In this document: one piece after another, positions 1-32,177 of the stretch
Numbering within the stretch: the stretch's first letter is position 1
How the letters are laid out: every line of letters begins with the position of its first letter
Source: a virus
Length of the DNA: 32,177 nucleotides
Virus record (IMG/VR): IMGVR_UViG_3300037189_012564
Location: 1 to 32,177 of that record
Reading direction: 5' to 3' (one strand)
Made by a program: the position numbers and the translations under genes
Notes under the pieces: generated by a model
Database searches by the model: none
What the model was told of the DNA's origin: nothing
Seen by the model: the letters and a program-made list of their open reading frames with translations, nothing else

Positions 1-87
1 ATCCGGCAGGCCGCCGAGATCAAGGCGGAGCTCGCAGCGATGCGCGCGCCGTCGAAGGCCGCGACCCTTTCGGGCGGGCGCAACCGC
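1..87. repeat. Terminal direct repeat, left copy
   Basis: These 87 bases are identical to 32091-32177. The reading frame of the capsid gene is continuous from the right end through the repeat into 88 onward. The simplest reading is an assembly overlap of a circular or circularly permuted genome, not a biological terminal repeat, because it lies inside a coding region and has no other features. Confidence 0.95.
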
Positions 88-1134
88 TCGGCGTACGAGC
101 AGGGTGCCTTCCTCGGTGCGGTCATGGGCCTTCGGTCCGGCGACCCCGAGGTCTACTCGGCGTCGAAGGCAAAGCTTCAGTCGCTCGGCGGCTGGGCGCA
201 TGCCACCGGCAAGGCCACCCTCGGAACCTCTGACGCGACGGGCGGATGGGAAATCCCCAACGCCATCGTGGACGAGCTGCTCGTGCCGGCCATGGCTGAG
301 TCGCCCTACCGGCGCCTCATGACGGTCGTGCCCGGTGTCACGACCGCGGCCATCGACCTGCCGTTCCGCTCGTCTCGCCGCGCGGCCGCCACCGTCGTCC
401 CGTTCGGCGATGTCAAGACCAATGCCGACCTGGCCTACAACGGCTACACGGCGACCCTGTACACCCTCGCCAAGATCCATGACATTTCGATGCAGTTCGC
501 GCGGCAGTCGCGCGGTGCTGCGGAGCGCGACGTCGTGGGCGAGCTCGCCGCTGCGTTCGCGCAGGGCGAGGCCGACTACATCCGCGAGGGCACCGGCTCG
601 TCTCAGCCCTACGGCTTCATGACGGCTCTGGCGAACAGCCCGTCGACGTTCACCACGAGCTTCACCGCTTCGTCGACGACGCTCGCGGGTAGCATCGCGC
701 GCTCCATCGCTGACGCGGCTGGTGCGCTCGCTGCGCGTGGTGTCCGCCCGAATGGTGCGCTCATGTCGGCGTCGTCCTTCTGGACGATGGCGAGCCAGGG
801 CACCGATACGGCTGGCTTCTTCTTCAACACGGTCAACGGCGCAGGCGGCATCGCGCCCGGTACCCTCATGACGGCCTGGGGCCTTCCGGTCTACCCGGAT
901 GCCACGGCTGACATCAAGGGCACGGGCTCCATCACCGATAACCTCGTCGTCGCCGACTGGTCGAAGTTCAAGATCTTCACCGGCCAGAGCTACCGCGTCG
1001 ATACGTCGGAGATCGCTGGCGAGCGGTGGGACCGCAACCTCATCGGCTTCCGGGCCGAGATGGAGCTGGCCTTCGACGGTCGGCCCGCGGTCTACGCGGG
1101 CTACGCTCAGCTCATCGCTGACATCGTCCCGTAA
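1..1134 (+). CDS. Major capsid protein, HK97 fold (3' part; gene starts at 31845)
   Basis: This is the C-terminal 377 residues of the major capsid protein. Joined across the 87-base overlap to the GTG start at 31845, the full protein is about 459 residues, normal for an HK97-fold capsid protein with an N-terminal scaffolding (delta) domain. Seen here are the family's usual features: a TGGWEIP entry to the mature domain, a GSSQPYGF motif in the middle, and a C-terminal stretch of alternating hydrophobic segments ending in the A-domain-like GFRAEMELAFDGRPAVY. The protease gene lies just upstream (30984-31808), as expected if the N-terminal coiled coil is cleaved off after assembly. The ATG at 40 is internal and is not the start. 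The gene is followed by a hairpin at 1157-1191. Confidence 0.95.
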   Translation: MRQAAEIKAELAAMRAPSKAATLSGGRNRSAYEQGAFLGAVMGLRSGDPEVYSASKAKLQSLGGWAHATGKATLGTSDATGGWEIPNAIVDELLVPAMAESPYRRLMTVVPGVTTAAIDLPFRSSRRAAATVVPFGDVKTNADLAYNGYTATLYTLAKIHDISMQFARQSRGAAERDVVGELAAAFAQGEADYIREGTGSSQPYGFMTALANSPSTFTTSFTASSTTLAGSIARSIADAAGALAARGVRPNGALMSASSFWTMASQGTDTAGFFFNTVNGAGGIAPGTLMTAWGLPVYPDATADIKGTGSITDNLVVADWSKFKIFTGQSYRVDTSEIAGERWDRNLIGFRAEMELAFDGRPAVYAGYAQLIADIVP

Positions 1135-1156: not shown

Positions 1157-1191
1157 GCCGGGTCGGACCGCGAGGTCCGGCCCGGCTTCTT
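1157..1191 (+). terminator. Hairpin terminator after the capsid gene
   Basis: GCCGGGTCGGACC (1157-1169), loop GCGA, then GGTCCGGCCCGGC (1174-1186) form a 13-bp stem with one G-U pair and a GNRA tetraloop, followed by TTCTTT. It probably ends or attenuates the highly expressed head transcript before the glycan cassette. The tail is short and not purely T, so partial read-through is likely. Confidence 0.75.
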
Positions 1192-1215: not shown

Positions 1216-1920
1216 ATGATGGAAGAGCGAGAGTTTCGGACCCCGCACGGCGCCACGGTGCGCCTTCTGTGCCGGCCGGGCACCAACGACCATATGATGG
1301 CCCAGTCGTGCCTCGATGAAGACGAGTACGGTCTGGCGGACGTGCCCGTCGGATCGGTCAGCCTCGCGGCCGACATCGGCTCGCATATCGGAATGGTCGC
1401 CATCGGTCTCGCGGTCGACCATCCGACCGCTAGCATCCTTGCGGTCGAGCCGCTCGATGAGAACCTTCACCTCATCGAGGAGAACGCCCGCCTCAGCGGC
1501 GTCCTCGACCGCATCACGATCATCCCTGGCGCCGCCGCGAAGACGAAGGCGAAGGGCGTCCGCATCGCCTGGGATTTCGAGGGTCACGAGCAAGCGGCGA
1601 TGCATCGCTTCGTCGCCAACCAGCCGATGCCCGACGGGACCAGGCAGAAGTTCGCGACCGTCGAGGCCATCACCCTCGCCGACCTTATCCCCGCGGGGAC
1701 GCTCGACCTGCTCGTCACCGACTGCGAAGGCGGCGAGTACGAGCTCCTCGGCAACGCGAGCGCGGCCGGCAAGAACGCGCTGCGCCGGGTCGCCGAGATC
1801 CGCGGCGAGTACCACGGCGGCTACACCCGCCTCGTCGAGCTGCTGGACGCGACGCACGTCGTGGATCGGGTCGGCGGCGACGCGAACGTCGGCGGCTTCA
1901 TCGCGAGGTTCCGCGCTTGA
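1216..1920 (+). CDS. FkbM-family methyltransferase
   Basis: This 234-residue protein has the pattern of FkbM-type SAM-dependent methyltransferases, which commonly O-methylate sugars or polyketides. Visible are SAM-binding motif I (DIGSHIGM, about residues 53-60), an acidic motif II (AVEPLDENLHLIEENARLSG, with E78), and the family's C-terminal DLLVTDCEGGEYELL (about 164-178). It is the first of four genes joined by overlaps, the other three being predicted glycosyltransferases. A sugar-methylating role on a phage-made glycan is therefore likely, but this is inferred from context. GAGGGG lies directly before the ATG at 1216, and the next ATG at 1219 would have slightly better spacing, so the start is uncertain by one codon. 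Confidence 0.88.
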   Translation: MMEEREFRTPHGATVRLLCRPGTNDHMMAQSCLDEDEYGLADVPVGSVSLAADIGSHIGMVAIGLAVDHPTASILAVEPLDENLHLIEENARLSGVLDRITIIPGAAAKTKAKGVRIAWDFEGHEQAAMHRFVANQPMPDGTRQKFATVEAITLADLIPAGTLDLLVTDCEGGEYELLGNASAAGKNALRRVAEIRGEYHGGYTRLVELLDATHVVDRVGGDANVGGFIARFRA

Positions 1921-2960
1921 GCCGCATCGTCTTGATGCTCGCCCATTCCATCGAGGAATACATGCAGGTCCGGCTCCTCTCGGAGCTCGGCCATGACGTC
2001 CTCTCCATCGGCGCGTACCTCGACCCCGCGCATCCGGGCGACGACAAGCGGCCCGCCCTGCCGGGCGTCCCGTTCCACGCCGACCTTGCCGCCGCGGTGT
2101 CGGCCGCGCCCTGCTCGCCGGACATGCCCGACGATCATCTGTGGGGCGCGAAGGATTACCTTCCGGACGCGGTCCTTGAGTGGGGCGATATCTTCATCGT
2201 CCATCATTGCGAGTGGCGCTGGCTCGCGGGCGGCAACTTCGAGCGTCTGCGCGACGCGGGCAAGCGGATCATCTGGCGGACCGTGGGCCAGTCGACCCAC
2301 GAGAACGAGGCCCGGATGACGCCGCTTCGGGCGCAGGGCCTCCAGATCGTCCGCTACTCGCCGAAGGAGCGGAGCATCCCCTACTACGCCGGGTCCGACG
2401 CGCTCATCCGGTTCTGGATGGATCCCGCCGAGTACACCGACTGGGTGGGCACGGACATCCGAGTCGGCAACGTCACCCAGGACATGCGCGGTCGGGCCGC
2501 GTGGACGGGCTGGGACTGGTGGCAGGAGGTCGCCCGCTACGTGCCGACGTACCCGGCCGGGCCGCGCTCCGACGAATGGGGCGGCCTCGGCGCACTCGGC
2601 TACGACGCGCTCAAGGCCTACCTGCGGACGATGCGCGCCTACCTGTACACCGGCACGTTCCCCGCCTCCTACACGCTCGGCTTCATCGAGGCCGCGATGA
2701 CCGGCGTGCCTATCGTCGCGGCCGGTCCCGGCCGTTGGGGCCGCGACTTCTCCGGATTGCCGTACGGACACCTGCTCTACGAGGCTCACGAGCTGGTCCC
2801 GCTTTGGTCGGACGATCCGTACAAGGCCGCGCAGATGCTGAACCGGCTCCTTCACGACGAAGACTGGGCGAAGGCGGTCAGCGTCAAGCAGGTCGAAGTC
2901 GCGACCGCCCTGTTCGCGAAGGACAAGATCGCCGCTGAGTGGAGGGAGTTTCTTCGATGA
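1917..2960 (+). CDS. Predicted glycosyltransferase (GT-B type), first of three
   Basis: The 347-residue protein begins at a TTG overlapping the stop of the FkbM gene (TTGA). The N-terminus (SRIVLMLAHS, then LLSELGHDVLSIG) looks like the first Rossmann unit of a GT-B enzyme. Near the C-terminus, YTLGFIEAAMTGVPIVAAGPG matches the donor-binding region where GT-B enzymes carry a conserved acidic residue and a GxPVV-type turn. Part of the middle (WRTVGQSTHENEAR) does not look like any family I recognise. Donor and acceptor sugars cannot be read from sequence. Its place between the capsid gene and the neck genes suggests decoration of virions or of host surface glycans. Confidence 0.75.
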   Translation: MSRIVLMLAHSIEEYMQVRLLSELGHDVLSIGAYLDPAHPGDDKRPALPGVPFHADLAAAVSAAPCSPDMPDDHLWGAKDYLPDAVLEWGDIFIVHHCEWRWLAGGNFERLRDAGKRIIWRTVGQSTHENEARMTPLRAQGLQIVRYSPKERSIPYYAGSDALIRFWMDPAEYTDWVGTDIRVGNVTQDMRGRAAWTGWDWWQEVARYVPTYPAGPRSDEWGGLGALGYDALKAYLRTMRAYLYTGTFPASYTLGFIEAAMTGVPIVAAGPGRWGRDFSGLPYGHLLYEAHELVPLWSDDPYKAAQMLNRLLHDEDWAKAVSVKQVEVATALFAKDKIAAEWREFLR

Positions 2961-4033
2961 GGATGCTTGCAGACTTCCACCATCACGCCCTGGCCGAGTC
3001 ACTCGCCATCACCTTTACCGATCATTGGGGCGTCGACCTGTTCTATCCGATGGGGATGGAATGGTTCGATGAAGGCATCTGGCAGTTCGAGCGTGCCTTT
3101 CACGGCGACCGGGTCGCGCGCCAGTACCTCGAAGGCATCTGGGTTGGCGCTCACGTCGTCGACGGCATCGGGCGCCTTGAGGATCGTCGCCATCCGGGCC
3201 GCATCATCTGGGGCGTCACGCTCGAAGCTGCGCGCGCGTCTCATTGGGACATCGTCCTCTCGACCCTGCCGCACAATGACGAAGGCTTCCACCGTTTCGC
3301 GACCGAGCGAGCCGCGCGCTTCGGCGTCCAGGTCGGGAACACCATGCAGGACAGCCGCTTCGATCTTGCGAGTTTCATCCTCGCTTCATCGACGATGCCC
3401 GGCTACACCGACGCTTCAACGTGGGGCCGCGTGGTCGACTACCGCGGCGCGCCCATGGTCATCTATCACCAGGCATTCGACACGGAACGCAACTTCTTCC
3501 CGTCGACGGCGCCGGCGCTCTGGTCGGGCGAAGTCGCATCGTGGGTCAACTGCTTCCCCGAGACATCGCCCTATCCGTCCTTCCTGGGCTTCGCAAGGCG
3601 GACGCGCGACGAGTTCGACTGGCGCGTTTACGGCTCCTACGGCTCTGCCGCGACCGACGAGTTCGCCGCGGGCGACATCTCGCTCGTCCCGCAGATCGGC
3701 GACCGCATGCGCGAGGCCCGCATCGGCTTCCATATGAAGTCGTGGTCCGACGGCTATGGGCACGTCATCCACAACTGGGCCGCCATCGGGCGCCCGCTTA
3801 TCTGGGTGGCGCCCTACTACCGCGACAAGCTCGCTGCGCCGCTCTGGGTCGATGGCGTCAACGCCTGGGACATCACGACGCGCAGCGAAGACGAGATCGT
3901 CGAGGTCATGAAGCGCCTGCGCGACGACGACGAGTTTTGGCAGGCGGCTTGCGAGTCGAGCGCCGCGCGCTTCCGCGAGATCGTCAACTTTGAGCATGAG
4001 GCCAACGTCATCGGGGAGATGCTTGGGCTATGA
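2957..4033 (+). CDS. Predicted glycosyltransferase-like protein, second of three
   Basis: The protein has 358 residues from the ATG at 2957, which overlaps the stop of the previous gene (ATGA). GGAGGG nine bases upstream fixes this start over the earlier in-frame GTG at 2939. It has no textbook EX7E motif. It ends with a GT-B-like donor-binding region (FHMKSWSDGYGHVIHNWAAI, then GRPLIWVAPYYRDK) and a C-terminal helix typical of GT-B closure. The N-terminus (ADFHHHALAESLAITFTDHWG) could be a substrate loop or metal-binding stretch. I call it a glycosyltransferase from the fold pattern and the cassette context; the exact family is unknown to me. Confidence 0.65.
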   Translation: MRMLADFHHHALAESLAITFTDHWGVDLFYPMGMEWFDEGIWQFERAFHGDRVARQYLEGIWVGAHVVDGIGRLEDRRHPGRIIWGVTLEAARASHWDIVLSTLPHNDEGFHRFATERAARFGVQVGNTMQDSRFDLASFILASSTMPGYTDASTWGRVVDYRGAPMVIYHQAFDTERNFFPSTAPALWSGEVASWVNCFPETSPYPSFLGFARRTRDEFDWRVYGSYGSAATDEFAAGDISLVPQIGDRMREARIGFHMKSWSDGYGHVIHNWAAIGRPLIWVAPYYRDKLAAPLWVDGVNAWDITTRSEDEIVEVMKRLRDDDEFWQAACESSAARFREIVNFEHEANVIGEMLGL

Positions 4034-5271
4034 GAGTGCTATTCCTCGGCGACCTCGCCGCGACCGGTTTTGGATCGGTCACGACCGACCTCGGCCGGGC
4101 CATGCTCGACCGCGGCCTCGACGTCCGCTTCCTCTCCCAGAATGAGATCGGCAAGCTGCCGGAGCCGTTCGCGAGCCGGACCGTCGACCTCGCCTTCTAC
4201 GAGTACCAGGCGGGTACCGCGGGCGTCACCGGCGTCCGCTCGCTCATCGGCGACATCATCGACGGCGTGCCGGTCCACCTGCTCGCCAACGGCGAGGCCT
4301 TCGGCGATTGGAAGCCGGATGCCGTTCTGCTCCTCTCCGACTTCGCCGCCGCGCGCCTGCTCTGGACCCGCTTCGAGTCCGAGCTCCGACGCGTGCCGAC
4401 CTATCACTACGTGCCCATCGAAGGCATCGACCTGCCACCGCTCTGGGGCGCGCTCTGGTCGGTCGTCAAGCCTATCGCCATGTCTTCCTTCGGACAGGAT
4501 GAGATCGAGAAGGTCACCGGAAAGCGGCCGGCGCTTGCCTACCACGGCGTCGACACGGACGCCTTCTTCCCCGTCAGCCCGAGCCGACCGCTCAAGGTGC
4601 CCATCGACGACAGCCCGGATTCCGCGATGGTCACCATCACGAGCAAGGAGGGCGCAAAGCGGTTCTTCGGTTTCGATCCGAAGTGGACTATCATCGGACG
4701 TGCCGACCGCAACATGCCGCGCAAGCGATACGGCTCGCTCTTCCGGGCGCTCGACCCCGTCCTCGCAGACCGGCCAGACGCGCGCTTGGTCGTGCATGCG
4801 TCGGCCTTCGACCAAGGTGGCTTCCTGCCCGATAGCGTCAGCAAGATGAGCCAGGCCGGCGGCTCGCGGGTCATCGTGACGGATCGCCCAGGCCTGCCGC
4901 GCTCTGTTCTCTGCGCGCTTTACAACGCCTTTGACGTCTACGCCACCACATCCGCCGAGGGCTTCGGCCTTTGCATCGCCGAGGCGATGGCGTGCGGCGT
5001 GCCCGCGGTCGGCATGGATTACTCCGCCGTGCCCGAGGTCATCGGGCCGGGCGGCATATGGGCGCCCGTCGCCTACACCTACGACAACGAATACGATCAC
5101 AAGTGGGCGGTCCCGCAGGAAGACGAGTTCGGCCGCGCGGTCGCCCGCCTCATCGACCATCCGGCCCGCCGTCGTGAGCTTGGCACCCTCGCGCAGCGCC
5201 ACGTGGCAACGACCTTCCGCTGGTCGAAGGCCGCCGAAGTCGTCGCAAACGTTATGCACGACAACGCTTGA
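4030..5271 (+). CDS. Glycosyltransferase, GT4-like
   Basis: This 413-residue protein starts at an ATG overlapping the previous stop (ATGA). It is the clearest glycosyltransferase of the set. The N-terminus (RVLFLGDLAATGFGSVTTDL) is the GT-B glycine-rich loop, and AEGFGLCIAEAMACGVPAV (residues 309-327) carries the retaining GT4 EX7E motif with E310 and E318, followed by SAVPEVIGPGG. Such enzymes use nucleotide-sugar donors in the cytoplasm. It is the last gene of the cassette and is followed by a strong hairpin at 5305-5334, so the four genes form one unit bounded by hairpins. Confidence 0.92.
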   Translation: MRVLFLGDLAATGFGSVTTDLGRAMLDRGLDVRFLSQNEIGKLPEPFASRTVDLAFYEYQAGTAGVTGVRSLIGDIIDGVPVHLLANGEAFGDWKPDAVLLLSDFAAARLLWTRFESELRRVPTYHYVPIEGIDLPPLWGALWSVVKPIAMSSFGQDEIEKVTGKRPALAYHGVDTDAFFPVSPSRPLKVPIDDSPDSAMVTITSKEGAKRFFGFDPKWTIIGRADRNMPRKRYGSLFRALDPVLADRPDARLVVHASAFDQGGFLPDSVSKMSQAGGSRVIVTDRPGLPRSVLCALYNAFDVYATTSAEGFGLCIAEAMACGVPAVGMDYSAVPEVIGPGGIWAPVAYTYDNEYDHKWAVPQEDEFGRAVARLIDHPARRRELGTLAQRHVATTFRWSKAAEVVANVMHDNA

Positions 5272-5304: not shown

Positions 5305-5334
5305 AGCCCCCAGCCGAAAGGCTGGGGGCTTCTT
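5305..5334 (+). terminator. Rho-independent terminator after the glycan cassette
   Basis: AGCCCCCAGCC (5305-5315), loop GAAA, then GGCTGGGGGCT (5320-5330) make a perfect 11-bp stem with a GNRA loop followed by TCTTC. This is the most convincing stem in the late region and closes the glycan cassette. A 13-base stretch TTGACACGGTAAT just before it (5268-5280) also occurs in the main early promoter at 13631, but here it lacks a usable -10. Confidence 0.85.
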
Positions 5335-5371: not shown

Positions 5372-6019
5372 TTGTCGCTCTGGGTCACGGCCGCGCAGGT
5401 CCGCACGTTTGCTAACCTCGATGGCACGTCCGGCCGCTACAGCGACGCATCCATCGGGTCCAACATCCTCGCCGCGCAGGCGCTCATCGAGCAGCGGACC
5501 GGCCGCCAGTTCGACTCGACTACGGGAACGCGCTACTTCACGACCGAAGGGCGCGCGCAGCTCGCCATTCCCGACTTGCGCTCGGTGACGTCGGTGACCA
5601 TCAACGGCTCGACGCTCGCGGCGAACGAGACCTACTACCTCCTCTCCGATCCGCGATGGCCGAGCGTCTACGTCGCCATCCAGTTCCGCTCCTTCAGCCG
5701 CGGGCGCCAGCCGTGGTACCTCTCGGTGCCGGATTGGTGGGACCGCGGCCTGGACATGTCCAACGGCTACGCCGACTCGTCGATGCCCAACGATCTCGCC
5801 ATCGCGTCGAACGAGTGGGGATGGGCGACGCCCCCGGCAGACGTTCTCCATGCCACCAAGGCCACGGCGGCCTGGCTGACCAAGCGAGCCGACGCGATGC
5901 TCGGCAATGCGGTCTCGATGCCGGACGGGTCCGTCTACGCCTATGACCGCCACCCGCCCGAGCTTGACGCGGTCGTCGCCACCTATCGCATCGGCGAGCA
6001 GGCGGTCGGCATCGTATGA
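5372..6019 (+). CDS. Head-tail connector (adaptor), gp6-like
   Basis: A TTG at 5372, preceded by AAAGGAGG four bases away, gives 215 residues. A longer in-frame reading from 4931 would run through the glycosyltransferase gene and the terminator and is not credible. The start LWVTAAQVRTFANLDG, followed by a helix ending in LIEQRTGRQF, is the usual opening of HK97 gp6/SPP1 gp15-type connectors, which dock under the portal. The protein is longer than the roughly 100-residue minimum, with a Trp-rich loop (about residues 105-160) that may be an insertion. The neck gene follows with an ATGA overlap. Confidence 0.8.
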   Translation: MSLWVTAAQVRTFANLDGTSGRYSDASIGSNILAAQALIEQRTGRQFDSTTGTRYFTTEGRAQLAIPDLRSVTSVTINGSTLAANETYYLLSDPRWPSVYVAIQFRSFSRGRQPWYLSVPDWWDRGLDMSNGYADSSMPNDLAIASNEWGWATPPADVLHATKATAAWLTKRADAMLGNAVSMPDGSVYAYDRHPPELDAVVATYRIGEQAVGIV

Positions 6020-6528
6020 ACGACCTGGAAGGCGCGGACGAGCTCAATCGCAAGCTGAAGGCGCTGCGCGATGGGACCGCCTCGCGGGCGCTGCTCCTTG
6101 AGCTTGGCAACGAGGTCGTGAGGAACGCCACCGTCAACCTTCAGCCGCACGACAAGACGGGCAACCTCTCGCGCTCGATCCGCGTGGCCGAGGTCGACGA
6201 GAACGCGCAGACCATCCGGGTGCGCGCGGGCGGCACGCAGGGCGTCAACTACGCGGCCTACCTTGAGTTCGGCACCGGCATCTATGGCCCCAATCGTCGG
6301 CCCATCGTGCCGGTTCGTGCCAAGGCGCTCCGCTTCCCCGCAAGCGGCGCGGCGACCCGACTGTCCGGAAACCTCACCAGCGCGCAGCAACGAGCTGGCG
6401 GCGGGTGGCAGTTCCGCAAGTCGGTCCGCGGCGTCAAGCCGGTCAAGTACATGGAAAACGCCATCAACGACACGGCGCGCGGCATCAACCTCGCGCCGAC
6501 GTTCACCGCGGTCTGGAACAAGGCATGA
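6016..6528 (+). CDS. Neck / head-tail joining protein, HK97 gp10-like
   Basis: This 170-residue protein starts at an ATG overlapping the previous stop. It shows the HK97 gp10 family pattern: an N-terminal helix beginning with LEGADELNRKLKAL, the segment DKTGNLSRSIRV, and the hallmark YAAYLEFGTG (about residues 77-86). The C-terminal VKYMENAIND helix is also typical. Proteins of this family complete the neck or head-tail joint. Order and overlaps with the adaptor before it and the tail terminator after it support this. Confidence 0.88.
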   Translation: MNDLEGADELNRKLKALRDGTASRALLLELGNEVVRNATVNLQPHDKTGNLSRSIRVAEVDENAQTIRVRAGGTQGVNYAAYLEFGTGIYGPNRRPIVPVRAKALRFPASGAATRLSGNLTSAQQRAGGGWQFRKSVRGVKPVKYMENAINDTARGINLAPTFTAVWNKA

Positions 6529-6935
6529 GCGTCACCGCCGATCTCCGCAACGGAGCCAAAGCCATCCTCGATACCGTGCCGGCCATCGTTCAGACATACT
6601 CGGCTCGGCCCGGCTCCATCGGTTCGACGCCTGCCGCGTGGGTCGACCAAGTCCGCGTTGATCTCACGCACGACGCCGGTACGCGCCAATGGTCGGCTGA
6701 GGCGGACGTCCTTGTCGTCTGCGGCGGCTTTGACAATGAGGAACAGCAGGCCAACGCCGACACCATCCTCGATGCCGTGGTCGATGCGTTCTCGGACGCT
6801 CCACATATGGCCGGCGCCAACACGGTCAGCGAGCCGGTGCGGGTCCGTAGCACGACCGTCGATAATGGAAACGGCATCGTGTATGCCGCTTGGATCGTCA
6901 CCATCGGGCGCTTCGTCTTCGCCGAAGGCCGTTAG
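6525..6935 (+). CDS. Tail terminator / tail completion protein
   Basis: The 136-residue product begins at the ATG at 6525 that overlaps the neck gene's stop; the longer in-frame reading from 6405 is rejected. Length and alternating strand-helix pattern (DLRNGAKAILDTV, then an acidic FDNEEQQANADTILDAVVDAF helix, then AAWIVTIGRFVF) fit the small tail terminator family that caps the tail tube. There is no sharp motif, so the call rests largely on position between the neck protein and the tail tube. Confidence 0.72.
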   Translation: MSVTADLRNGAKAILDTVPAIVQTYSARPGSIGSTPAAWVDQVRVDLTHDAGTRQWSAEADVLVVCGGFDNEEQQANADTILDAVVDAFSDAPHMAGANTVSEPVRVRSTTVDNGNGIVYAAWIVTIGRFVFAEGR

Positions 6936-6959
6936 CCCAGAAGGGCAGGAGGATCGACA

Positions 6960-7985
6960 ATGCCCATCCAGGGCTTTAGCCGCTACCGTCTCTGGCAGTT
7001 CGGCAAGCAGACCGTTCACGGCACCGCCGTCGCGACCACGCGGCGCTATGCCGCGCGTGGCGTCCCGACCGTCGAGCCTAACTGGACCGCGCAGGATAAC
7101 GTCGACGTCGGAAGCATCGACCCCGTGCTTCCCGATTACCGGACCGCGACCGACATCACCGCGTCGCTCACCGGCAATCTCACCTATGACGACATCCCCT
7201 GGCTGATGTCTGCGGCTGTCCGAGGTGGTCAGTCGGCGGTGACGTCCTCGTCTACCTACCAGTGGACCCACCAGGCGCTGAGTCTCACGGCGACCACGCT
7301 TGACGAGTGGACCGCGGAGTTTGCCGATGACGTCAGCTCCGACGGCTGGAAGTTCAAGGACGGGCTGGTCGAGTCGCTGGAACTGTCATTCGATGAGTCG
7401 CTCGGCCCGTGGCAGTTCACCTCGGGCTGGCGCTGGGGATCGGCTGACTATGGCGTCACCCCGACCGCCAACCTCGCCGTCGGCTCGAACCTGCCACTCG
7501 TGTTCGGCGCCGATACCAAGCTCTTCATCGACTCGACGTCCGGCGGCATCGGTGGCACGCAGATCAGCGACGCGCTGCATCGGGCGACCATCACCATCAC
7601 CAATACGATTGATATCAAGCGATACGCGAACGGCTCCAATAGCCGGTTCGCCGTCGGCGGCTACGGTGTCGCCGGACGCGAGATCACGGCTTCCTTCACC
7701 TTTGCGAAGCAGTCCAATACGGTCGGCATCGCGGGCGAGGCGGCCAAGTGGCTCACCGCCGATCCGACCAATCGCTTCCTCAAGCTGAACGCGACGTCGC
7801 CCAGCATCATCTCGGGCGCCATCCCCTACTCCTGGGACCTGTTCCTCGCCGGCGCCTGGACCGCACGCACGGATGAGGAGATCGGCGGCAATACGGTCGT
7901 GACGCTTGAGTGTCGGGGCAGGTACGACGCAGGGCTGGGGTACATCCTCAAGTCCTACGCCGTCAACAACCGCTCGACCCTGTGA
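6960..7985 (+). CDS. Major tail tube protein
   Basis: The gene encodes 341 residues with AGGAGG upstream of the ATG at 6960. It sits between the tail terminator and the chaperones, the fixed place of the tail tube gene. The sequence is almost all beta strands with Ser/Thr/Gly-rich turns. It contains two similar blocks, TYDDIPWLMSAAVRGG early and a later ITNTIDIKRYANGSNSRFAV followed by ITASFTFAKQ, consistent with a tail tube beta-sandwich carrying an extra domain. It is longer than the minimal tube proteins (about 200 residues), so a surface domain is likely. Confidence 0.85.
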   Translation: MPIQGFSRYRLWQFGKQTVHGTAVATTRRYAARGVPTVEPNWTAQDNVDVGSIDPVLPDYRTATDITASLTGNLTYDDIPWLMSAAVRGGQSAVTSSSTYQWTHQALSLTATTLDEWTAEFADDVSSDGWKFKDGLVESLELSFDESLGPWQFTSGWRWGSADYGVTPTANLAVGSNLPLVFGADTKLFIDSTSGGIGGTQISDALHRATITITNTIDIKRYANGSNSRFAVGGYGVAGREITASFTFAKQSNTVGIAGEAAKWLTADPTNRFLKLNATSPSIISGAIPYSWDLFLAGAWTARTDEEIGGNTVVTLECRGRYDAGLGYILKSYAVNNRSTL

Positions 7986-8601: not shown

Positions 8602-10361
8602 GCGCGCTGGCTCAGAGCGCAGAGCTCGTCGCGACGATCCGCCTCAAGGATGAGTTCACCGCCACCGGCAAGAAGGCCGAAGGCGAGATGAAGCGCCTTG
8701 AGAAGCAGACGTCTAGCCTTCGCAAGTCGACCGAGCGGCTTCAGCGCGCTGCGGGCACGACACTCAAGAACTCCTTCAAGGTCGCCGGCGTCGCCGCGGC
8801 CTTCCTCGCGTACAACATCAAGCAGGGCATCAACGAGCTCGTCGAGTGGGAAGACGCGCAGCTCCAGGTCACCGCCGCCATCAAGTCGACGAATGGCGCC
8901 GCGCACGTCTCGTCGCAGATGGTCGAAGACCTCGCGAAGAAGTACGCCGAGCTTGTCATGGCCGAAGACGACGTCATCCTCTCGGCCGAGTCGATCATCC
9001 TGCGCTACCCCAACGTCACCAAGAAGGCTTTCGAGCCTGCGCTCAAGGCGGCGCTCGACCTCGCCGCGGCTACCGGCAAGGACGTCACATCGGCCGCGCG
9101 CGATATGGCCCGGTCGCTCAACGATCCGGTCGCCGGCCTCTCGCGGCTCACGCGCCAGGGCGTCACCTTCACCGAAGGCGAGAAGAAGAAGATCGCCGCG
9201 CTCGTCGAGTCCGGCAAGCGGTTCCGAGCGCAGACCATCATCCTCGACAAGGTCAATCAGCAGTTCGGCGGCACCGCGCAGAAGGCGAGCGAAGGCTACC
9301 GCGGCTCGATGGTGCGGCTCAACAAGGCCATCAAGAACCTACAGCAGGCGCTAGCAGCACCGCTTATCAAGCCGCTTGAGCGGATCGCTCGGGCGCTTGG
9401 TGACTTCGCCAACAAGCCCGAGATCGCGCAGGGGCTAACTGACTTCGGCAACGCCCTGGCGTCCTTCGTCACCGACGAGAACCTTACCAAGGCGACCGAC
9501 GCGCTCAGCGAAGGCTTCCAGTTCGTCAAGAATCTCGACTGGAAGGCAATCGGCACCGGCTTCCAAACGACCGCCGACATCGCGAGCAAGTCTGTCGCGC
9601 TCTTCAAGAGCCTCCCGCCCGGCGTCCAGTCGGCGCTCGTGACGCTCCTCGCCGCGAACAAGCTCACCGGCGGTCTCGTTGGCGATGTCTTCAAGGGTCT
9701 TGGCGGCCTCGTCCTCAACAACCTCAAGACGATCACGGCGGCTAACGTAACGGTCATCGGGACGAACGTGACCAATAGGCCTGATGCCGCGACGACACCA
9801 TCGGTCGCCGCAGCCGTGACCGCAGTCATCCCAGTTATCGCGTGGGACCTCTTCTTCCGCAAGCCGGTTGAGGATGCCGTACAAGGCGCGCTCGGCAAGC
9901 GGGGACCGTTGGACCTCGGCGGCGAGTCGCTCATGGGACCGGGAAAGACGCTATCGAGGCGAGATGTGCGCCGTGCCTTCCTCGGCTTCGATAATCCGTT
10001 CTTCAACTCGCCGACGCGCCAAGGCGGAACGTTTGGCGGGTCAACCCTTGCGCCCTCGTTCCCCAACTCCAACGCCCTGCGCGACCAGTTCACGACGCTC
10101 GCGAACACCCTTTCGAGGCAGGGCAAGCTTACGGATGATCATTACGTCGACCTTGCCAACTCGGTCGCCAATGGGACCAAGACGTACAGGCAGGCGGTCA
10201 AGGAGCTTCGCGGCATCAAGGGTGCGCAGGGAGAGGTCAAGGACGCTATCAAGGGCATCAAGTACCAGTTCACCCTCAAGCCCTCGGTGACCATCTCCGC
10301 GTCTGCTACGGGCAACGCCATCACCTTTGCCGCTAACGGGCAGCGGCTTGAGATTCGCTAG
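8598..10361 (+). CDS. Tail tape measure protein
   Basis: This 587-residue protein starts at an ATG overlapping the chaperone frame. It opens with a long charged helix (KDEFTATGKKAEGEMKRLEK onward), then a hydrophobic segment (FKVAGVAAAFLAYN) and a central alpha-rich region with RLTRQGVTFTEGEKKKI, a pattern common in tape measure proteins. A second hydrophobic stretch (VAAAVTAVIPVIAWDLFF) lies near residue 410. At about 0.15 nm per residue it would give a short tail, near 90 nm. No peptidase or lysozyme domain is apparent. Confidence 0.88.
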   Translation: MSALAQSAELVATIRLKDEFTATGKKAEGEMKRLEKQTSSLRKSTERLQRAAGTTLKNSFKVAGVAAAFLAYNIKQGINELVEWEDAQLQVTAAIKSTNGAAHVSSQMVEDLAKKYAELVMAEDDVILSAESIILRYPNVTKKAFEPALKAALDLAAATGKDVTSAARDMARSLNDPVAGLSRLTRQGVTFTEGEKKKIAALVESGKRFRAQTIILDKVNQQFGGTAQKASEGYRGSMVRLNKAIKNLQQALAAPLIKPLERIARALGDFANKPEIAQGLTDFGNALASFVTDENLTKATDALSEGFQFVKNLDWKAIGTGFQTTADIASKSVALFKSLPPGVQSALVTLLAANKLTGGLVGDVFKGLGGLVLNNLKTITAANVTVIGTNVTNRPDAATTPSVAAAVTAVIPVIAWDLFFRKPVEDAVQGALGKRGPLDLGGESLMGPGKTLSRRDVRRAFLGFDNPFFNSPTRQGGTFGGSTLAPSFPNSNALRDQFTTLANTLSRQGKLTDDHYVDLANSVANGTKTYRQAVKELRGIKGAQGEVKDAIKGIKYQFTLKPSVTISASATGNAITFAANGQRLEIR

Positions 10362-11923
10362 TGCCGCTCGAATGGACCATTGGCGGGGTGGACAAGTCCG
10401 ATAGCGTCCGCTATGAAGGCTGGACGCTCGCCGAGATGGCGCAGCGCGGGCAGGTCGGCGCCGCGACCACGATCATCGACGATGTCCTCGGCACGTATCT
10501 TCCTCCCGCCCAGAAGGCGGTGACGGTCAACGAGTCGAGCGCCACGCCTAACCGCGTCTTCACCGGCTACGTCGCCGAGCGCACGACCTCGGATTTCCAG
10601 ATGCCGCCGGGTCAGCGCCAATGGACGGTGACCTTCGAGGATCTGAACGTCCTCCTTGACGACCGCATCGTCGGCCCGAACGGCAACCGTCCCGCGGAGT
10701 CGGACCGCGAGCGCATCCTATGGCTTCTCTCCGACCTGTCGATGGGGCCAATCACCTCGGGCGTCATCCACGCGGCGAGCGACAACGTCGACATGGATGC
10801 GGTCGACTACCGAGGCAAGCGGCCGCGCGACGTCCTCGAAGATTGCTCGCAGAAGTCGGGATGCAACTACTTCGTCTATGACCATAGCGCGAGCGGGACC
10901 ACCCTCGCGCCCAAGCTCTTCTACGATCTCGGCAGCAACGGGACGCTACCGTCGACGCTGTACCTCTCCGACAGCGCGGCAGACGTCGACAGCACGACCG
11001 TCTTCGGCGTCCAGGGCGTCGAGTACTCGTACGACCCCAGCCGCGTCTACTCGCGCGTGCGCGTGCGCTACAAGCAGGGCAGCACGACTCAGGTCAACGA
11101 CATCACCGGCTCAAACTTCCGCGTCCGCGAGGTGTACAAGCGGTACATGCGGACCAAGACCGAGCCGAAGGCCATCCAGCAGGCGACCAAGTGGTTGAGC
11201 CATGCGGCGACCGAGCAGCGGTCGCTCCATGTGTCGGTCGTCTTGCCGGCCGCGTCGGTCAACCTCATCCGCGCGGGCATGAGCATCGGCATCAAGCTCA
11301 CCCGCCACGGCATGACGGGCTACGAGTCCTGGCGCATCACGGGCCGCTACGTCCGGCCGCTCAACGACGTCACCTACGTCGTCGACCTTGACCTCAAGGA
11401 CAAGATCAAGCCGACGCGCTGGCAGGAAGGGCCGGACGTCTCGGTCGACGAAGAGTTCAGCAACGCGACCAACGTCTCGACCCCGGACGCCGCGGGCGTC
11501 ACCATCGACGCCGACAGCATCACCGTCCGCAACGGCTCCGGCACGGTCGTCATCGACGGCTCATCCGCCTTCTGGTCGATCCTCGCAAGCGGCTCGATCA
11601 CGCTTCCCGAGGCGCGCAACAACAAGGGCGTCCAGAAGAAGTCGCTGGAAGTGACCATCCCCAACGTCACGACCGATCCGGTGACGTGGTTCGCGGCCAG
11701 CGGGCCGATGCGCGACGGCACGGGCAACTGGGGCCAGTTCCTGCCGATGCTAGAGATGAGCGCCAGCGGCGTCATCCTGCGCGCCATCCAAGGCCGCTCA
11801 CGCTATGCGTCCGGCACCGGCTCCAACATCCGCATCGCCATCCAGGTCACGCGCTTCAGCACCACGACCGTCGAGCCGACCCAGACCGTGAAGTATTGGG
11901 TCATGGACAAGAGGAGCATCTGA
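10361..11923 (+). CDS. Minor tail protein, tail hub/baseplate-like
   Basis: A GTG sharing its first base with the stop of the tape measure gene starts a 520-residue protein. The first 350 residues (PLEWTIGGVDKSDSVRYEGW, later FTGYVAERTT, TVTFEDLNVLLDD, RPRDVLEDCSQKSGCNYFVY) resemble the hub proteins that follow the tape measure in siphophages (Tal or gp27-like fold, with repeated beta barrels). From about 375 the protein becomes Ser/Gly/Thr-rich (ITVRNGSGTVVIDG) and ends in a beta-rich domain like those of tip proteins. No enzyme motif is seen. Function as the tail hub is inferred from position and fold pattern. Confidence 0.72.
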   Translation: MPLEWTIGGVDKSDSVRYEGWTLAEMAQRGQVGAATTIIDDVLGTYLPPAQKAVTVNESSATPNRVFTGYVAERTTSDFQMPPGQRQWTVTFEDLNVLLDDRIVGPNGNRPAESDRERILWLLSDLSMGPITSGVIHAASDNVDMDAVDYRGKRPRDVLEDCSQKSGCNYFVYDHSASGTTLAPKLFYDLGSNGTLPSTLYLSDSAADVDSTTVFGVQGVEYSYDPSRVYSRVRVRYKQGSTTQVNDITGSNFRVREVYKRYMRTKTEPKAIQQATKWLSHAATEQRSLHVSVVLPAASVNLIRAGMSIGIKLTRHGMTGYESWRITGRYVRPLNDVTYVVDLDLKDKIKPTRWQEGPDVSVDEEFSNATNVSTPDAAGVTIDADSITVRNGSGTVVIDGSSAFWSILASGSITLPEARNNKGVQKKSLEVTIPNVTTDPVTWFAASGPMRDGTGNWGQFLPMLEMSASGVILRAIQGRSRYASGTGSNIRIAIQVTRFSTTTVEPTQTVKYWVMDKRSI

Positions 11924-13158
11924 TGCCCGACATCGACGACCCGTTCCTCGAAGAGCTCGAACCAGTCGCCACGCAACAGGGCATCGACGTTCCTGGCTCG
12001 CGCTCCGGATTCAGCGACTTCATCAACTTTGGCATCTTCAACGGCAACTTTCGCGTCGGTCCGCCGCAGGCCGCGAGCAACATCGACGTCGCGTCATCGC
12101 TCGCTGGATCGAACTTCCTGCCCGGTTGGCGCTTCGTCCAGTCGTCAAACACGACCATTACGGGCAGCGTGGTTGCATCGACGATGACCGCGTCTGGGTC
12201 CAACTTCCGCTTTACCATCGACCCGTCGGCCACGGTCGGCGATAAGGCCTATCTCGAACAGATCGTCGATATCGGCGGCAGCGCGACCGGCGACGCCGGC
12301 GGATTGCTTCGCGTCACTGGACGCTCTTCCTACACGACGAGCGGCGCCATCTGGGTCGCCACGCAGTACCTCGCCGGCGATGGATCGGTTCGCGGCATGC
12401 CTGCGGAGCAGGTCAAGGTAGGTACGTTCAGCACGCTTGAGACGCTTATCCCTACCGGCTATCAGGCGTGGTCATTCGATACGACGCCAGACGAAGACCC
12501 GCCACCGGCAGGAGCGCGGTACATGCGCTACCGCATCGTCAGCTCGCCATCCACCGCGTCGGCTGGTAGCACGGTCGACATCTACGATGTGCGCCGAGAG
12601 CGTGCGGTGACCAACCTCCGGCTGACGGATCGTGGGCGGACCGGCATCAACGCGCTCTTCGACGTCTACTCGTCCGGCTCCAATCTCTTCTGGCAACCGA
12701 CGTCGACCACAACCGGCGCAACCACGGTCAAGCGGCTCCTCAACGCGCAGCTGGTTCCGGTGATGTTCTCGCTGGTCAACGTGCCGGCCAATGCCACGAC
12801 CGATATGCAACTGTGGGGCGACACCGCGCTCGGTCTTGCGACGCCGCGCATCGGCGTTCCATGGGGCGGATGGATCGTCGGATGCAGCTACCGCACGTCA
12901 GCCGTCCCGACCGCTGGCGGTGGCACGGCGCTGCGCATTCGCGTCCAGCTTGGCGGCACGACCCAATGGACGCCCTTTACCCTCTCCGGTAGCGGCCTGG
13001 AAGCGACCAACGATGCCAAGAGCGTCGACGTGGGAACCTACACCTACACGGCGAACCAGCAACTCGGGGTAGCCATCGAAACGAGCGCGGGCTATACGCC
13101 GACGACCGCGGACATGGCCGTTGTCGTGTGGGTCGCCGTGAAGTACGACGGAGCGTAG
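11923..13158 (+). CDS. Tail tip protein, possible receptor-binding protein
   Basis: The ATG at 11923 overlaps the previous stop and has GAGGAG upstream; the longer in-frame reading from 11686 is rejected. The 411-residue product starts acidic (PDIDDPFLEELEPV), then IFNGNFRVG and NFLPGWRFVQSSNTTITG. That layout of asparagine followed by a jelly-roll resembles carbohydrate-binding or discoidin-like modules found in tail tips and adhesins. The C-terminal half (VPVMFSLVNVPANATTDMQL onward) is another beta-sandwich-like domain. Receptor binding is inferred only from position and domain type. Confidence 0.6.
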   Translation: MPDIDDPFLEELEPVATQQGIDVPGSRSGFSDFINFGIFNGNFRVGPPQAASNIDVASSLAGSNFLPGWRFVQSSNTTITGSVVASTMTASGSNFRFTIDPSATVGDKAYLEQIVDIGGSATGDAGGLLRVTGRSSYTTSGAIWVATQYLAGDGSVRGMPAEQVKVGTFSTLETLIPTGYQAWSFDTTPDEDPPPAGARYMRYRIVSSPSTASAGSTVDIYDVRRERAVTNLRLTDRGRTGINALFDVYSSGSNLFWQPTSTTTGATTVKRLLNAQLVPVMFSLVNVPANATTDMQLWGDTALGLATPRIGVPWGGWIVGCSYRTSAVPTAGGGTALRIRVQLGGTTQWTPFTLSGSGLEATNDAKSVDVGTYTYTANQQLGVAIETSAGYTPTTADMAVVVWVAVKYDGA

Positions 13159-23930: not shown

Positions 23931-25219
23931 TCGGCGCGCTCGCCGGGCTTGACCCGGAGCGCCTGCGCGCTATCGACGAGGCGCTCGGCTGGGTGCCGGA
24001 GCCGCACCAGATGGCGCCGGCCGGGGAGTGGACCTACTGGCTCTTCGTAGCCGGCCGCGGCGCGGGCAAGACGGACGCAGGCGCCCACTACGTGACCCGC
24101 CACGTCGACGGCCCCCCGTGCCTTGATGGCCCGGTCCCTCACCGAGTCGCCATCGCCGCGCCAACGCTGGGCGACGCGCGTATGACCTGCGTCCGCGGCG
24201 ACTCCGGCTTGCTATCGCACGATCTCACCGCCCGCTTCGTCCTCATGGATGGCGAGGTCGTGTGGGCAAACGGATCGACCGGCCGCATCTTCGGCGCCTA
24301 CACGCCCGAGGATGTCGAGCGGTGGCGCGGTCCGCAGCACTGCCTCGTCTGGGCGGACGAGCTCGCCGCATGGCGGTACCTCGACGAGTGCTGGGACATG
24401 ATGCGGCTAGGCTTGCGCCTTGGGCAGCGTCCGCGCGTCGTCGTGACCACGACCGGCAAGCCGCGCAAGATGCTCAAGCAGCTCATGGCGCGGTCGGATG
24501 CGGTCGTCTCTCGCGCCACCACGAATGACAATCCCCACCTATCGCAGGGCGTGCGCGACGCGCTTTACGATCTGTACCGAGGGACGCGCCTTGAGCGTCA
24601 GGAGCTCGGCGGCGACATCGTCGAGAACGTCGAGGGCGCGCTGTGGAAGCCCGAGATGCTCGACCGCACGCCACCGCCGCAGGCATGGGGCGCCGATGGG
24701 CAGGTGCCGGCCATGCGCCGCATCGTCGTAGCCATCGACCCCGCGGTCACCAGCCGCGCCGATAGCGACGAGACCGGCATCGTGGTCGCTGGCATCGGCG
24801 AAGACGGCTACGCCTACGTCCTCGCGGATGAGTCGATGCGCGGTAGCCCGCACGCATGGGCGTCGGCCGCGGTCACCGCCTACCATCGCTGGTCGGCGGA
24901 CCGGATCGTCGTCGAGACCAACAATGGCGGCGAGATGGTCAAGCTCACTCTCGGCACGGTCGATGGCACCGTACCCGTCAAGGAAGTTCACGCGAGCCAG
25001 GGCAAGCGGACACGGGCCGAGCCGGTCGTCGCCAAGTACGAACAAGGCCGGGTACGCCATCCGTACCCGTTGCCAGCCCTTGAGGAGCAGATGATGACCT
25101 GGGACCCAGCCCGCGACGCCGATAGTCCGGACCGCGTGGATGCGCTGGTCTGGGCGCTCACCGAGCTCATGCTCGCTAATCCGTGGGCGGCATCCAAGTC
25201 GATGTCGGGTGTCGCATGA
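23927..25219 (+). CDS. Terminase large subunit
   Basis: The 430-residue packaging motor has Walker A GRGAGKT (43-49), Walker B CLVWADE (139-145), and a coupling-motif-like VVTTTGKP (172-179). The C-terminal RNase H-like nuclease has acidic residues at D271 (VVAIDPAVTS), E330 (VVETNNGG) and D405 (SPDRVDALVWAL). It translocates DNA into the procapsid at the portal and cuts concatemers. The length is normal. Whether packaging is cos or headful cannot be told from this sequence. The next gene overlaps by four bases. Confidence 0.95.
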   Translation: MIGALAGLDPERLRAIDEALGWVPEPHQMAPAGEWTYWLFVAGRGAGKTDAGAHYVTRHVDGPPCLDGPVPHRVAIAAPTLGDARMTCVRGDSGLLSHDLTARFVLMDGEVVWANGSTGRIFGAYTPEDVERWRGPQHCLVWADELAAWRYLDECWDMMRLGLRLGQRPRVVVTTTGKPRKMLKQLMARSDAVVSRATTNDNPHLSQGVRDALYDLYRGTRLERQELGGDIVENVEGALWKPEMLDRTPPPQAWGADGQVPAMRRIVVAIDPAVTSRADSDETGIVVAGIGEDGYAYVLADESMRGSPHAWASAAVTAYHRWSADRIVVETNNGGEMVKLTLGTVDGTVPVKEVHASQGKRTRAEPVVAKYEQGRVRHPYPLPALEEQMMTWDPARDADSPDRVDALVWALTELMLANPWAASKSMSGVA

Positions 25220-26370
25220 GCGTCCTGCGCGGCGACTGCGTCGAGGTCATGGCGGGCATGGAGCCGGACAGCGTGGACGCCATCGTCTGCGACCCGCCGT
25301 ATGGGATGGGCTTCATGGGCAAGGAGTGGGACCGCCTGGACGGTGCAGGGTTCCACGCGCCGAAGGACGAGGGGCGGACGTTCACGAACGACTCCGGCCA
25401 TATGTTCGACAACCTCAAAGCCCTGCCGCAGTACGGCCCGGCTCGGTCGATGCAGGCGTTCCACCACGCATGGGCCGCCGCCGCCTACCGTGTCGCCAAG
25501 CCCGGCGCATACCTGCTGGCGTTCGGTGGCACGCGCACCGTCCACCGGATGACGTGCGCGCTGGAGGACGCTGGCTGGGTCATCCGCGACATGCTGGTCT
25601 GGGCCTACGCGCAGGGCTTTCCCAAGTCCCGCGCGTCGCTGAAGCCCGCCTGGGAGCCGATCGTGATGGCCCGCAAGCCCGGAGCGTCGCGCGACCTGAA
25701 CATCGACGCGGCACGCATCCCGAGTAACGGCGAGACGATCCCCCGCGTCACCGGATCGGGCATCGTGGTCGGCGGCAAGACCAACGGCGGCTACGACAGA
25801 CCGTGGAATCACGACGCGGATGCGGTAGCGCGGCGACAGGAGCGGGCCGACGCCGCGATAGAAGCGGCGAACACCCTCGGTCGCTGGCCCGCTAACGTCA
25901 TCCTCACCGACCCCATCTTCGACGGCGGCTGGGACGGCGTGGTGGGCGGGGGCGAGAGCGCAGGCATGGGCCGCGTTGACACCCTGCGCAGAGGTCACAC
26001 GACGGGCGCAGGCATGGGGTACGGCAGCAGCAGCCCAGCAGAGGCGCGCGACACCGGGTACGACGACCAAGGCGGGTACAGCCGCTACTTCATGGTGCCC
26101 AAGGCCCCGACCCGTGAACGCAAGCTGTCCGATGGTCGCCGCAGCCCGCACCCCACGCAGAAGCCCGAGGCCCTGATCCGTCACCTGGTGACGCTGGTGA
26201 CGCCACCCGGCGGCGTAGTCCTCGACCCGTTCCTCGGAAGCGGAACCCTCGGCGTCGTCTGCGACGGGCTGGGCATGAAGTGGCTGGGCATCGAACGCGA
26301 GGACGAGTATGCCGACTGGTCCGAGGACCGCATCGCGGATGGCAAGGCGAAGTGGGAGGTCACCGCGTGA
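25216..26370 (+). CDS. Beta-class DNA methyltransferase, solitary
   Basis: An ATG overlapping the terminase stop gives 384 residues. DPPY (26-29) comes first, and the SAM-binding LDPFLGSGT (336-344) near the C-terminus, after HPTQKP (about 313-318). This order marks a beta-class amino-methyltransferase; DPPY favours N6-adenine over N4-cytosine. The long middle (about 140-300) would hold target recognition. No restriction gene is adjacent, so it probably protects phage DNA from host restriction. By hand count, about 16 of 22 leucine codons are CTG, while the terminase uses mainly CTC and CTT, which suggests recent acquisition. Confidence 0.9.
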   Translation: MSVLRGDCVEVMAGMEPDSVDAIVCDPPYGMGFMGKEWDRLDGAGFHAPKDEGRTFTNDSGHMFDNLKALPQYGPARSMQAFHHAWAAAAYRVAKPGAYLLAFGGTRTVHRMTCALEDAGWVIRDMLVWAYAQGFPKSRASLKPAWEPIVMARKPGASRDLNIDAARIPSNGETIPRVTGSGIVVGGKTNGGYDRPWNHDADAVARRQERADAAIEAANTLGRWPANVILTDPIFDGGWDGVVGGGESAGMGRVDTLRRGHTTGAGMGYGSSSPAEARDTGYDDQGGYSRYFMVPKAPTRERKLSDGRRSPHPTQKPEALIRHLVTLVTPPGGVVLDPFLGSGTLGVVCDGLGMKWLGIEREDEYADWSEDRIADGKAKWEVTA

Positions 26371-31844: not shown

Positions 31845-32177
31845 GTGAGCAACGAGTTTGTGACCCAGGTGGTCACGGGCGGCACCTCGCCGTCTGTGAA
31901 CATCCAGGACACCATCGGCAAGGCGGTCCACCGCCTCGACGAGATCGCGACCGAGATGGCCGCGGCCCGCGATGAGGATACCGCCCGGTGGCAGGCGCTC
32001 AATGAGGAGCGCAAGGCGCAGGCCGACACGCTGTCGGCGCTGAAGGCGCAGTACGAGACCACGTACCGCCAGGAGCAGACCGACGCTGCCATCCGGCAGG
32101 CCGCCGAGATCAAGGCGGAGCTCGCAGCGATGCGCGCGCCGTCGAAGGCCGCGACCCTTTCGGGCGGGCGCAACCGC
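31845..32177 (+). CDS. Major capsid protein, 5' part (continues at 1)
   Basis: The GTG at 31845, with GGAG nine bases upstream (caggagacct), begins the capsid gene: SNEFVTQVVTGGTSPSVNIQ, then helices DTIGKAVHRLDEIATEMAAA and ALNEERKAQADTLSALKAQY. This coiled region, about 100 residues in all, is the scaffolding delta domain removed by the protease. The frame enters the terminal repeat in phase with position 1, so 82 residues lie before the repeat and the full protein has about 459. Confidence 0.93.
   Translation, partial: MSNEFVTQVVTGGTSPSVNIQDTIGKAVHRLDEIATEMAAARDEDTARWQALNEERKAQADTLSALKAQYETTYRQEQTDAAIRQAAEIKAELAAMRAPSKAATLSGGRNR
32091..32177. repeat. Terminal direct repeat, right copy
   Basis: Identical to 1-87. 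Removing one copy gives a circular genome of 32,090 bp and an intact capsid gene. Confidence 0.95.

Follow-up and report, generated by a model that had tools for sequence, protein, structure and literature searches.

A fixed GT4 glycosyltransferase gene with exchangeable glycan genes between the capsid and neck genes of uncultured tailed phages: a probable virion-glycosylation island

The window analyzed here is a whole viral DNA stretch of 32,177 nucleotides, IMG/VR record IMGVR_UViG_3300037189_012564. Our subject is the slot between its major capsid gene and its head–tail adaptor gene, where four genes for glycan-type enzymes stand in a row: an FkbM-type methyltransferase, two divergent proteins designated GTa and GTb, and a GT4 glycosyltransferase. 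A preliminary description had placed four overlapping open reading frames between the major capsid and neck genes, and both their positions and their overlaps proved to be as claimed. The features of the slot and its flanks are as follows:

31845-32177, plus strand: true 5' end of the major capsid gene, with a GTG start; the gene continues from 88 to 1134 across the 87-bp end repeat (460 amino acids)
40-1134, plus strand: 3' part of the major capsid gene (HK97 fold family; PF05065, 7e-22; PHROG 10, major head protein), left flank of the slot
1157-1191, plus strand: GC-rich hairpin with TTCTT after the capsid gene (folding -31 kcal/mol)
1216-1920, plus strand: FkbM-type S-adenosylmethionine (SAM) methyltransferase, 234 amino acids (PF05050, 1.2e-6; PHROG 8156)
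1917-2960, plus strand: GTa, predicted divergent GT-B-fold glycosyltransferase, 347 amino acids, TTG start within TTGA (model, Foldseek, profile matches, motif)
2957-4033, plus strand: GTb, divergent GT-B-fold protein and probable glycosyltransferase, 358 amino acids, ATGA overlap (model, Foldseek, motif)
4030-5271, plus strand: GT4 glycosyltransferase, 413 amino acids, ATGA overlap (Pfam match, motif)
5305-5334, plus strand: hairpin after the cassette (folding -26 kcal/mol)
5372-6019, plus strand: head–tail adaptor (PHROG 442, 2.9e-13), right flank of the slot
6016-6528, plus strand: neck1/tail completion protein, HK97 gp10-like (Pfam and PHROG 5)

Two of the four enzymes were assigned by Pfam. 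The protein of 1216-1920 scored 29.2 bits against PF05050, above the curated gathering cutoff of 22.7, which bears out its earlier identification as an FkbM methyltransferase. The protein of 4030-5271 scored 51.4 bits against Glyco_trans_1_4 (cutoff 27), a CAZy GT4 assignment, and its canonical EX7E motif (E310-x7-E318) and donor-binding R231/K232 are present in 9/9 sequences, including that of Pontimonas phage phiPsal1.

GTa and GTb, the proteins encoded from 1917 and 2957, matched no Pfam family above cutoff and no PHROG family; a Patatin match of the 2957 protein lay below the Pfam cutoff and was taken as chance. AlphaFold (AF2) models were built from alignments of 36 (GTa) and 40 (GTb) sequences, and both adopted the GT-B fold, with mean pLDDT values of 95.9 and 95.1, respectively. 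The best Foldseek matches of GTa in the PDB were BshA, PimA, methylmannose polysaccharide mannosyltransferase and other GT4-type enzymes (scores 1e-11 to 1e-9, TMq 0.64-0.70); those of GTb were 7qsg (methylmannose polysaccharide mannosyltransferase), SdgB, GtfA and MshA (6e-10, TMq 0.5-0.63). Profile searches against the PDB matched GTa to GT4 chains by sequence and GTb to one. All three glycosyltransferases predicted in the preliminary description are thus glycosyltransferase-like, the GT4 by Pfam and the 1917 and 2957 proteins by fold, and the structural comparison placed neither of the latter two outside the glycosyltransferases.

The canonical EX7E motif is absent from both divergent proteins. 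GTa carries A250-x7-E258 instead, with A-x7-E in 36/36 aligned sequences, and GTb carries D265-x7-N273, with D-x7 in 40/40 and D-x7-N in 32/40, the second residue being D, S, Q or G in the remainder. GTb also contains the invariant block H-x-K-x-W-S-D-G-[FY]-G-H-x-x-H, and both proteins retain invariant polar residues (H259, K261, D265, H269 and H272 in GTb; R121, R146, R165, R193 and E258 in GTa). Glyco_trans_1_2 was matched at E<=0.01 by 12 of the 36 GTa relatives, and the window GTa has no Pfam match. Judged by these models, GTa and GTb are distinct, divergent glycosyltransferase-like families with altered catalytic motifs, and their nearest known counterparts appear to be GT4-type enzymes. 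No GTb relative was confirmed among 84,980 prokaryote genomes, and the family has so far been seen in viral contigs only. Searches of 50,697 phage records gave no match to GTa, GTb, FkbM or the capsid protein by tblastn, nor to 25 kb of sequence by megablast.

The TTGA and ATGA overlaps said to join the cassette genes were confirmed. The same -4 junctions recur in 21 relative loci for FkbM/GTa, 27 for GTa/GTb and 26 for GTb/GT4, and because they recur across loci, the 4-base overlaps are not a product of chance. The hairpins described as bounding the cassette both exist; the upstream one recurs among relatives, and the downstream one is not a conserved boundary. Of 60 slots, 45 had a strong hairpin in the 110 nt that follow the capsid gene, with a mean best folding energy of -25.8 kcal/mol versus -16.6 kcal/mol for shuffled sequences. 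The survey relied on folding, because a scan for perfect stems had failed to pick up even the upstream hairpin of the window. The post-capsid hairpin (1157-1191 in the window; also in L008, L015, L021, L067 and others) differs in sequence between slots, often lacks a T run, and may hold back transcription that would otherwise run on from the abundant capsid gene into those for the enzymes.

The downstream hairpin (5305-5334) did not recur in the surveyed relatives and was found only in the window phage. Measured from where the adaptor match begins, the stop codon of GT4 falls at about -13 to +18 nt in most relatives; the GT4 end therefore abuts the adaptor, leaving no room for a hairpin and making the cassette part of the head–neck operon. 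In locus L008 (5593-6183; same contig as L004), GT4 and the adaptor are separated by additional short genes that are absent from the window.

To place the window among its relatives, we scanned 2.9 million viral contigs with the GTb alignment and retrieved 55 loci. The cassette genes were found together at the capsid–neck position wherever the contig was long enough, the exceptions being order changes, added genes and one locus (L047) in which GTa was not found. As a set chosen by GTb is biased to GTb, the scans were repeated with the tail protein and the capsid protein. The capsid-selected set comprised 80 loci, 47 of them with both capsid and adaptor visible. GT4 was present between capsid and adaptor in all 47, and no slot was empty: 30 held all four genes, 2 lacked FkbM, and 15 held GT4 without FkbM, GTa or GTb. 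In slots without GTb, GT4 still scored 412-510 bits with a model built leaving those loci out. The preliminary description had regarded such a set in this place as unusual, and had proposed checking whether it comes and goes as a unit among related genomes. Instead, glycan genes in this place are normal across a large clade, phiPsal1 also having them there, and the cassette is not exchanged as a unit: GT4 is fixed and the other genes exchange.

What fills the slot otherwise is equally informative. In the 15 slots that keep only GT4 of the four, about 2 to 8 other genes occupy the space, mostly glycan genes; representative replacements are GT2s, a cytidylyltransferase, a MobA-like nucleotidyltransferase (NTP transferase), a hexapeptide acyltransferase, asparagine synthase and 3-oxoacyl-ACP synthase III (KAS III). 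Some slots that keep the four genes add GDP-mannose 4,6-dehydratase or further methyltransferases. In L100 and L101, both retrieved with the tail protein, the slot holds GT4 and no other called gene. Judging by these gene families, the slot content is that of an oligosaccharide locus.

Several individual slots deserve mention. In L100, the stretch of about 1 kb from capsid to GT4 (6152-7170) has no called gene and contains a strong hairpin. The KAS III gene lies within the capsid–adaptor slot at L180:14632-15570. Asparagine synthase-like genes lie in the slots of L159 (12585-13448), L170 and L175, and they may reflect amino-sugar or amide chemistry.

To determine which genes move, pairwise divergences were compared over 34 four-gene loci. 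GT4 divergence correlated with that of the capsid at r = 0.84 and with that of the adaptor at 0.88, the capsid–adaptor value itself being 0.84. FkbM, GTa and GTb, all positioned between the capsid gene and GT4, tracked the capsid only weakly, at 0.22 (0.21-0.22), 0.37 and 0.48, respectively. On a capsid tree of 57 rows, slot type required 5 changes versus 16.1 in shuffles, demonstrating that slot types are inherited in groups, yet do change. We read these results as a fixed GT4 with exchangeable companions, FkbM being the most mobile. By its presence in the slots and its co-divergence, GT4 is a phage-encoded glycosyltransferase associated with the head.

Relatives that share the tail and have a different head provide a further comparison. 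In L072, L086, L088, L099 and L105, the head protein is a fused protease-capsid protein (PHROG 2263), and there is no cassette between capsid and neck; the slot therefore goes with the head. These five loci carry the same neck1-to-tape-measure module on the other head, a case of head–tail mosaicism at the adaptor.

Taken together, we consider it probable, at roughly 0.6, that the slot is a modular virion-glycosylation island whose product is an O-methylated glycan on a head protein. Three GT-B glycosyltransferases, presumed active, would build a short glycan from host sugar-nucleotides, and FkbM would O-methylate it. The acceptor would most likely be a head protein, with the major capsid protein the leading candidate. 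GT4 would act on the protein acceptor and perhaps place the first sugar; such a role would account for its constancy in the slot and its co-divergence with capsid and adaptor. Elongation and capping of the chain would fall to GTa, GTb and FkbM, and their being swapped or replaced by other sugar genes would give related phages different glycans. That the product is a glycan is strongly supported, because the genes that fill the slot in relatives are of glycan type. The virion as target and the methyl group on the sugar, both proposed in the preliminary description, are retained here as the likely arrangement, and the modification may shield the particle or tune its contact with the host. A more specific version, which we would put at somewhat under even odds, is an O-antigen-like viral locus: a priming GT4 would be matched to the capsid, exchanged assembly genes would diversify particle glycans in the manner of serotypes, and GTa and GTb would be new families with altered motifs.

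Several observations weigh against the proposed island. The capsid relative L184 has a different gene order and no GT4 downstream. Sugar genes also occur upstream of the capsid gene in the other-head relatives L086 and L099, as rhamnosyltransferase-like and cytidylyltransferase genes (L086:5476-6213 and L099:2681-3433), and are thus not confined to the window's head type. Part of the GT4–capsid correlation comes from a deep division among the capsids. Restricted to capsid type A, the value is 0.66 for the four-gene loci (other genes 0.12-0.28) and 0.49 when every slot is counted; in type B, GTa and GTb follow the capsid nearly as closely as GT4 does. With the adaptor held, the partial r between GT4 and capsid is 0.34, so linkage to the adjacent adaptor explains part of the signal. 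GTa and GTb lack the canonical EX7E residues, so either or both could be partners without catalytic activity.

The last point leads to a variant compatible with the proposed island, in which only GT4 and FkbM are active and GTa and GTb are inactive GT-B paralogues serving as scaffolds or acceptor binders. The uniform replacement of EX7E, by A-x7-E in GTa and by D-x7 followed mostly by N in GTb, speaks for it, and such proteins can be likened to the non-catalytic partners of some protein glycosyltransferases. Set against this are the many invariant polar residues, as active enzymes would have; we regard the variant as unlikely.

About equally improbable in our judgment is that the glycan is carried not by the shell but by another part of the virion (tail tube, fibre or adaptor), with the slot merely a convenient late-operon position. 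Mycobacteriophage glycans are described on both capsid and tail tube in passages of PMC12363180 and PMC12619734 (citing Freeman 2023), GT4 is the adaptor's neighbour, the divergences of the two correlate at 0.88, and in the type A set those of GT4 and the tail protein correlate at 0.82. Over all four-gene loci, however, GT4 tracks the capsid (0.84) better than the tail protein (0.54), and the relatives with the same tail module on a different head have no cassette in the slot.

Methylated sugars are known in bacterial envelopes, and alteration of the host surface (seroconversion or superinfection exclusion, in the style of a Gtr cluster) is a further candidate function. Phage glycosyltransferases have been proposed to change cell-wall glycosylation against superinfection (PMC10202952). 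The four cassette proteins, however, contain no membrane segment (no 19-residue hydropathy window >1.6) and hence no GtrA/GtrB-like part as found in a Gtr cluster, and the genes lie within the head–neck operon, usually abutting the adaptor gene. Such a role is accordingly given little weight.

Glycosylation of the phage DNA by the cassette enzymes is very improbable: virus-encoded glycosyltransferases that hypermodify DNA are reported in a passage of PMC12619734 (citing Pyle 2024), but the genome contains no thymidylate-synthase/hydroxymethylase homologue (PF00303 absent, controls detected), the genes are located in a structural operon, and relatives add nucleotide-sugar, acyl and amide chemistry that fits an oligosaccharide. 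A search of the genome for Tet/JBP-type oxygenases gave no match, and its controls gave none either.

Bacterial O-antigen and flagellin glycosylation islands likewise keep some sugar genes constant and exchange others within a fixed slot; they target lipid or flagellin, whereas the window genes sit in a phage head operon. The closest phage parallels are in mycobacteriophages. According to a passage of PMC12363180, capsid glycosylation requires gp110 in Che8 and gp38 in Corndog, and a passage of PMC12619734 reports glycans at the C-termini of capsid and tail tube; both cite Freeman 2023. Che8, Corndog and Myrna resemble the window in encoding their own glycosyltransferases, with glycans reported on their capsid and tail tube proteins (passages of PMC12363180, PMC12619734 and PMC11256854, citing Freeman 2023). 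In the Che8-related Maravista, a passage of PMC11256854 puts the transferases close to the genome's 3' end, and not in a fixed capsid–adaptor slot as in the window clade. The same mycobacteriophage passages, unlike the pattern in the window clade, describe no exchangeable multi-enzyme set.

The same slot is used in the actinophage phiPsal1 (MG835450), in the order capsid, GT4, SAM methyltransferase, GT2 and neck; the capsid–neck place is therefore not unique to the window clade. Its GT4 is 23-26% identical to that of the window. It differs in that no GTa or GTb was found by search, GT4 comes first rather than last, and the methyltransferase is on the opposite strand. The paper on its host (PMC6106888) leaves the phage genes undiscussed. 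Synechococcus phage S-CBS4 and Tetrasphaera phage TJE1 also carry GT4, further transferase or sugar-nucleotide genes and a methyltransferase, located just after the portal gene in S-CBS4 and upstream of the terminase genes in TJE1, neither being the capsid–neck place. A partial literature search found no paper describing a glycan set in the capsid–adaptor slot.

The record has an exact 87-bp direct end repeat (1-87 and 32091-32177), giving a circle of about 32,090 bp. A capsid gene start at 40 was rejected as wrong, since the open frame crosses the record ends and begins at 31845. The gene set is typical of a long-tailed phage: terminase, DNA methyltransferase, portal with a Mu F-like part, capsid, adaptor, neck and tape measure. 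The DNA methyltransferase gene, of N6/N4 type, lies between terminase and portal (25183-26370), and two large genes after the tape measure (10361-13158) have no family match. A RES match of the adaptor fell under the Pfam cutoff and was taken as chance. A Chloroflexota host was considered on the basis of three binned contigs with capsid relatives (L203, L204 and L205) and set aside: two of the matches are fragments and none shows the cassette. These contigs are a weak clue, standing against a terminase that is nearest to that of a Streptomyces phage (46%), and no host is claimed.

Virion glycosylation in tailed phages was known before from only a few isolates. What is new here is a multi-enzyme glycan set, one gene fixed and several exchangeable, that keeps a constant place in the head operon throughout a diverse clade with hardly any cultured members. 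If the proposed virion-glycosylation island is real, a common group of environmental phages would as a rule have glycosylated particles, and the glycans on them would vary by gene exchange. The purpose of phage glycans, whether shielding, adhesion to host or matrix, or particle stability, would then become testable by comparison, and two glycosyltransferase families would be added for characterization.

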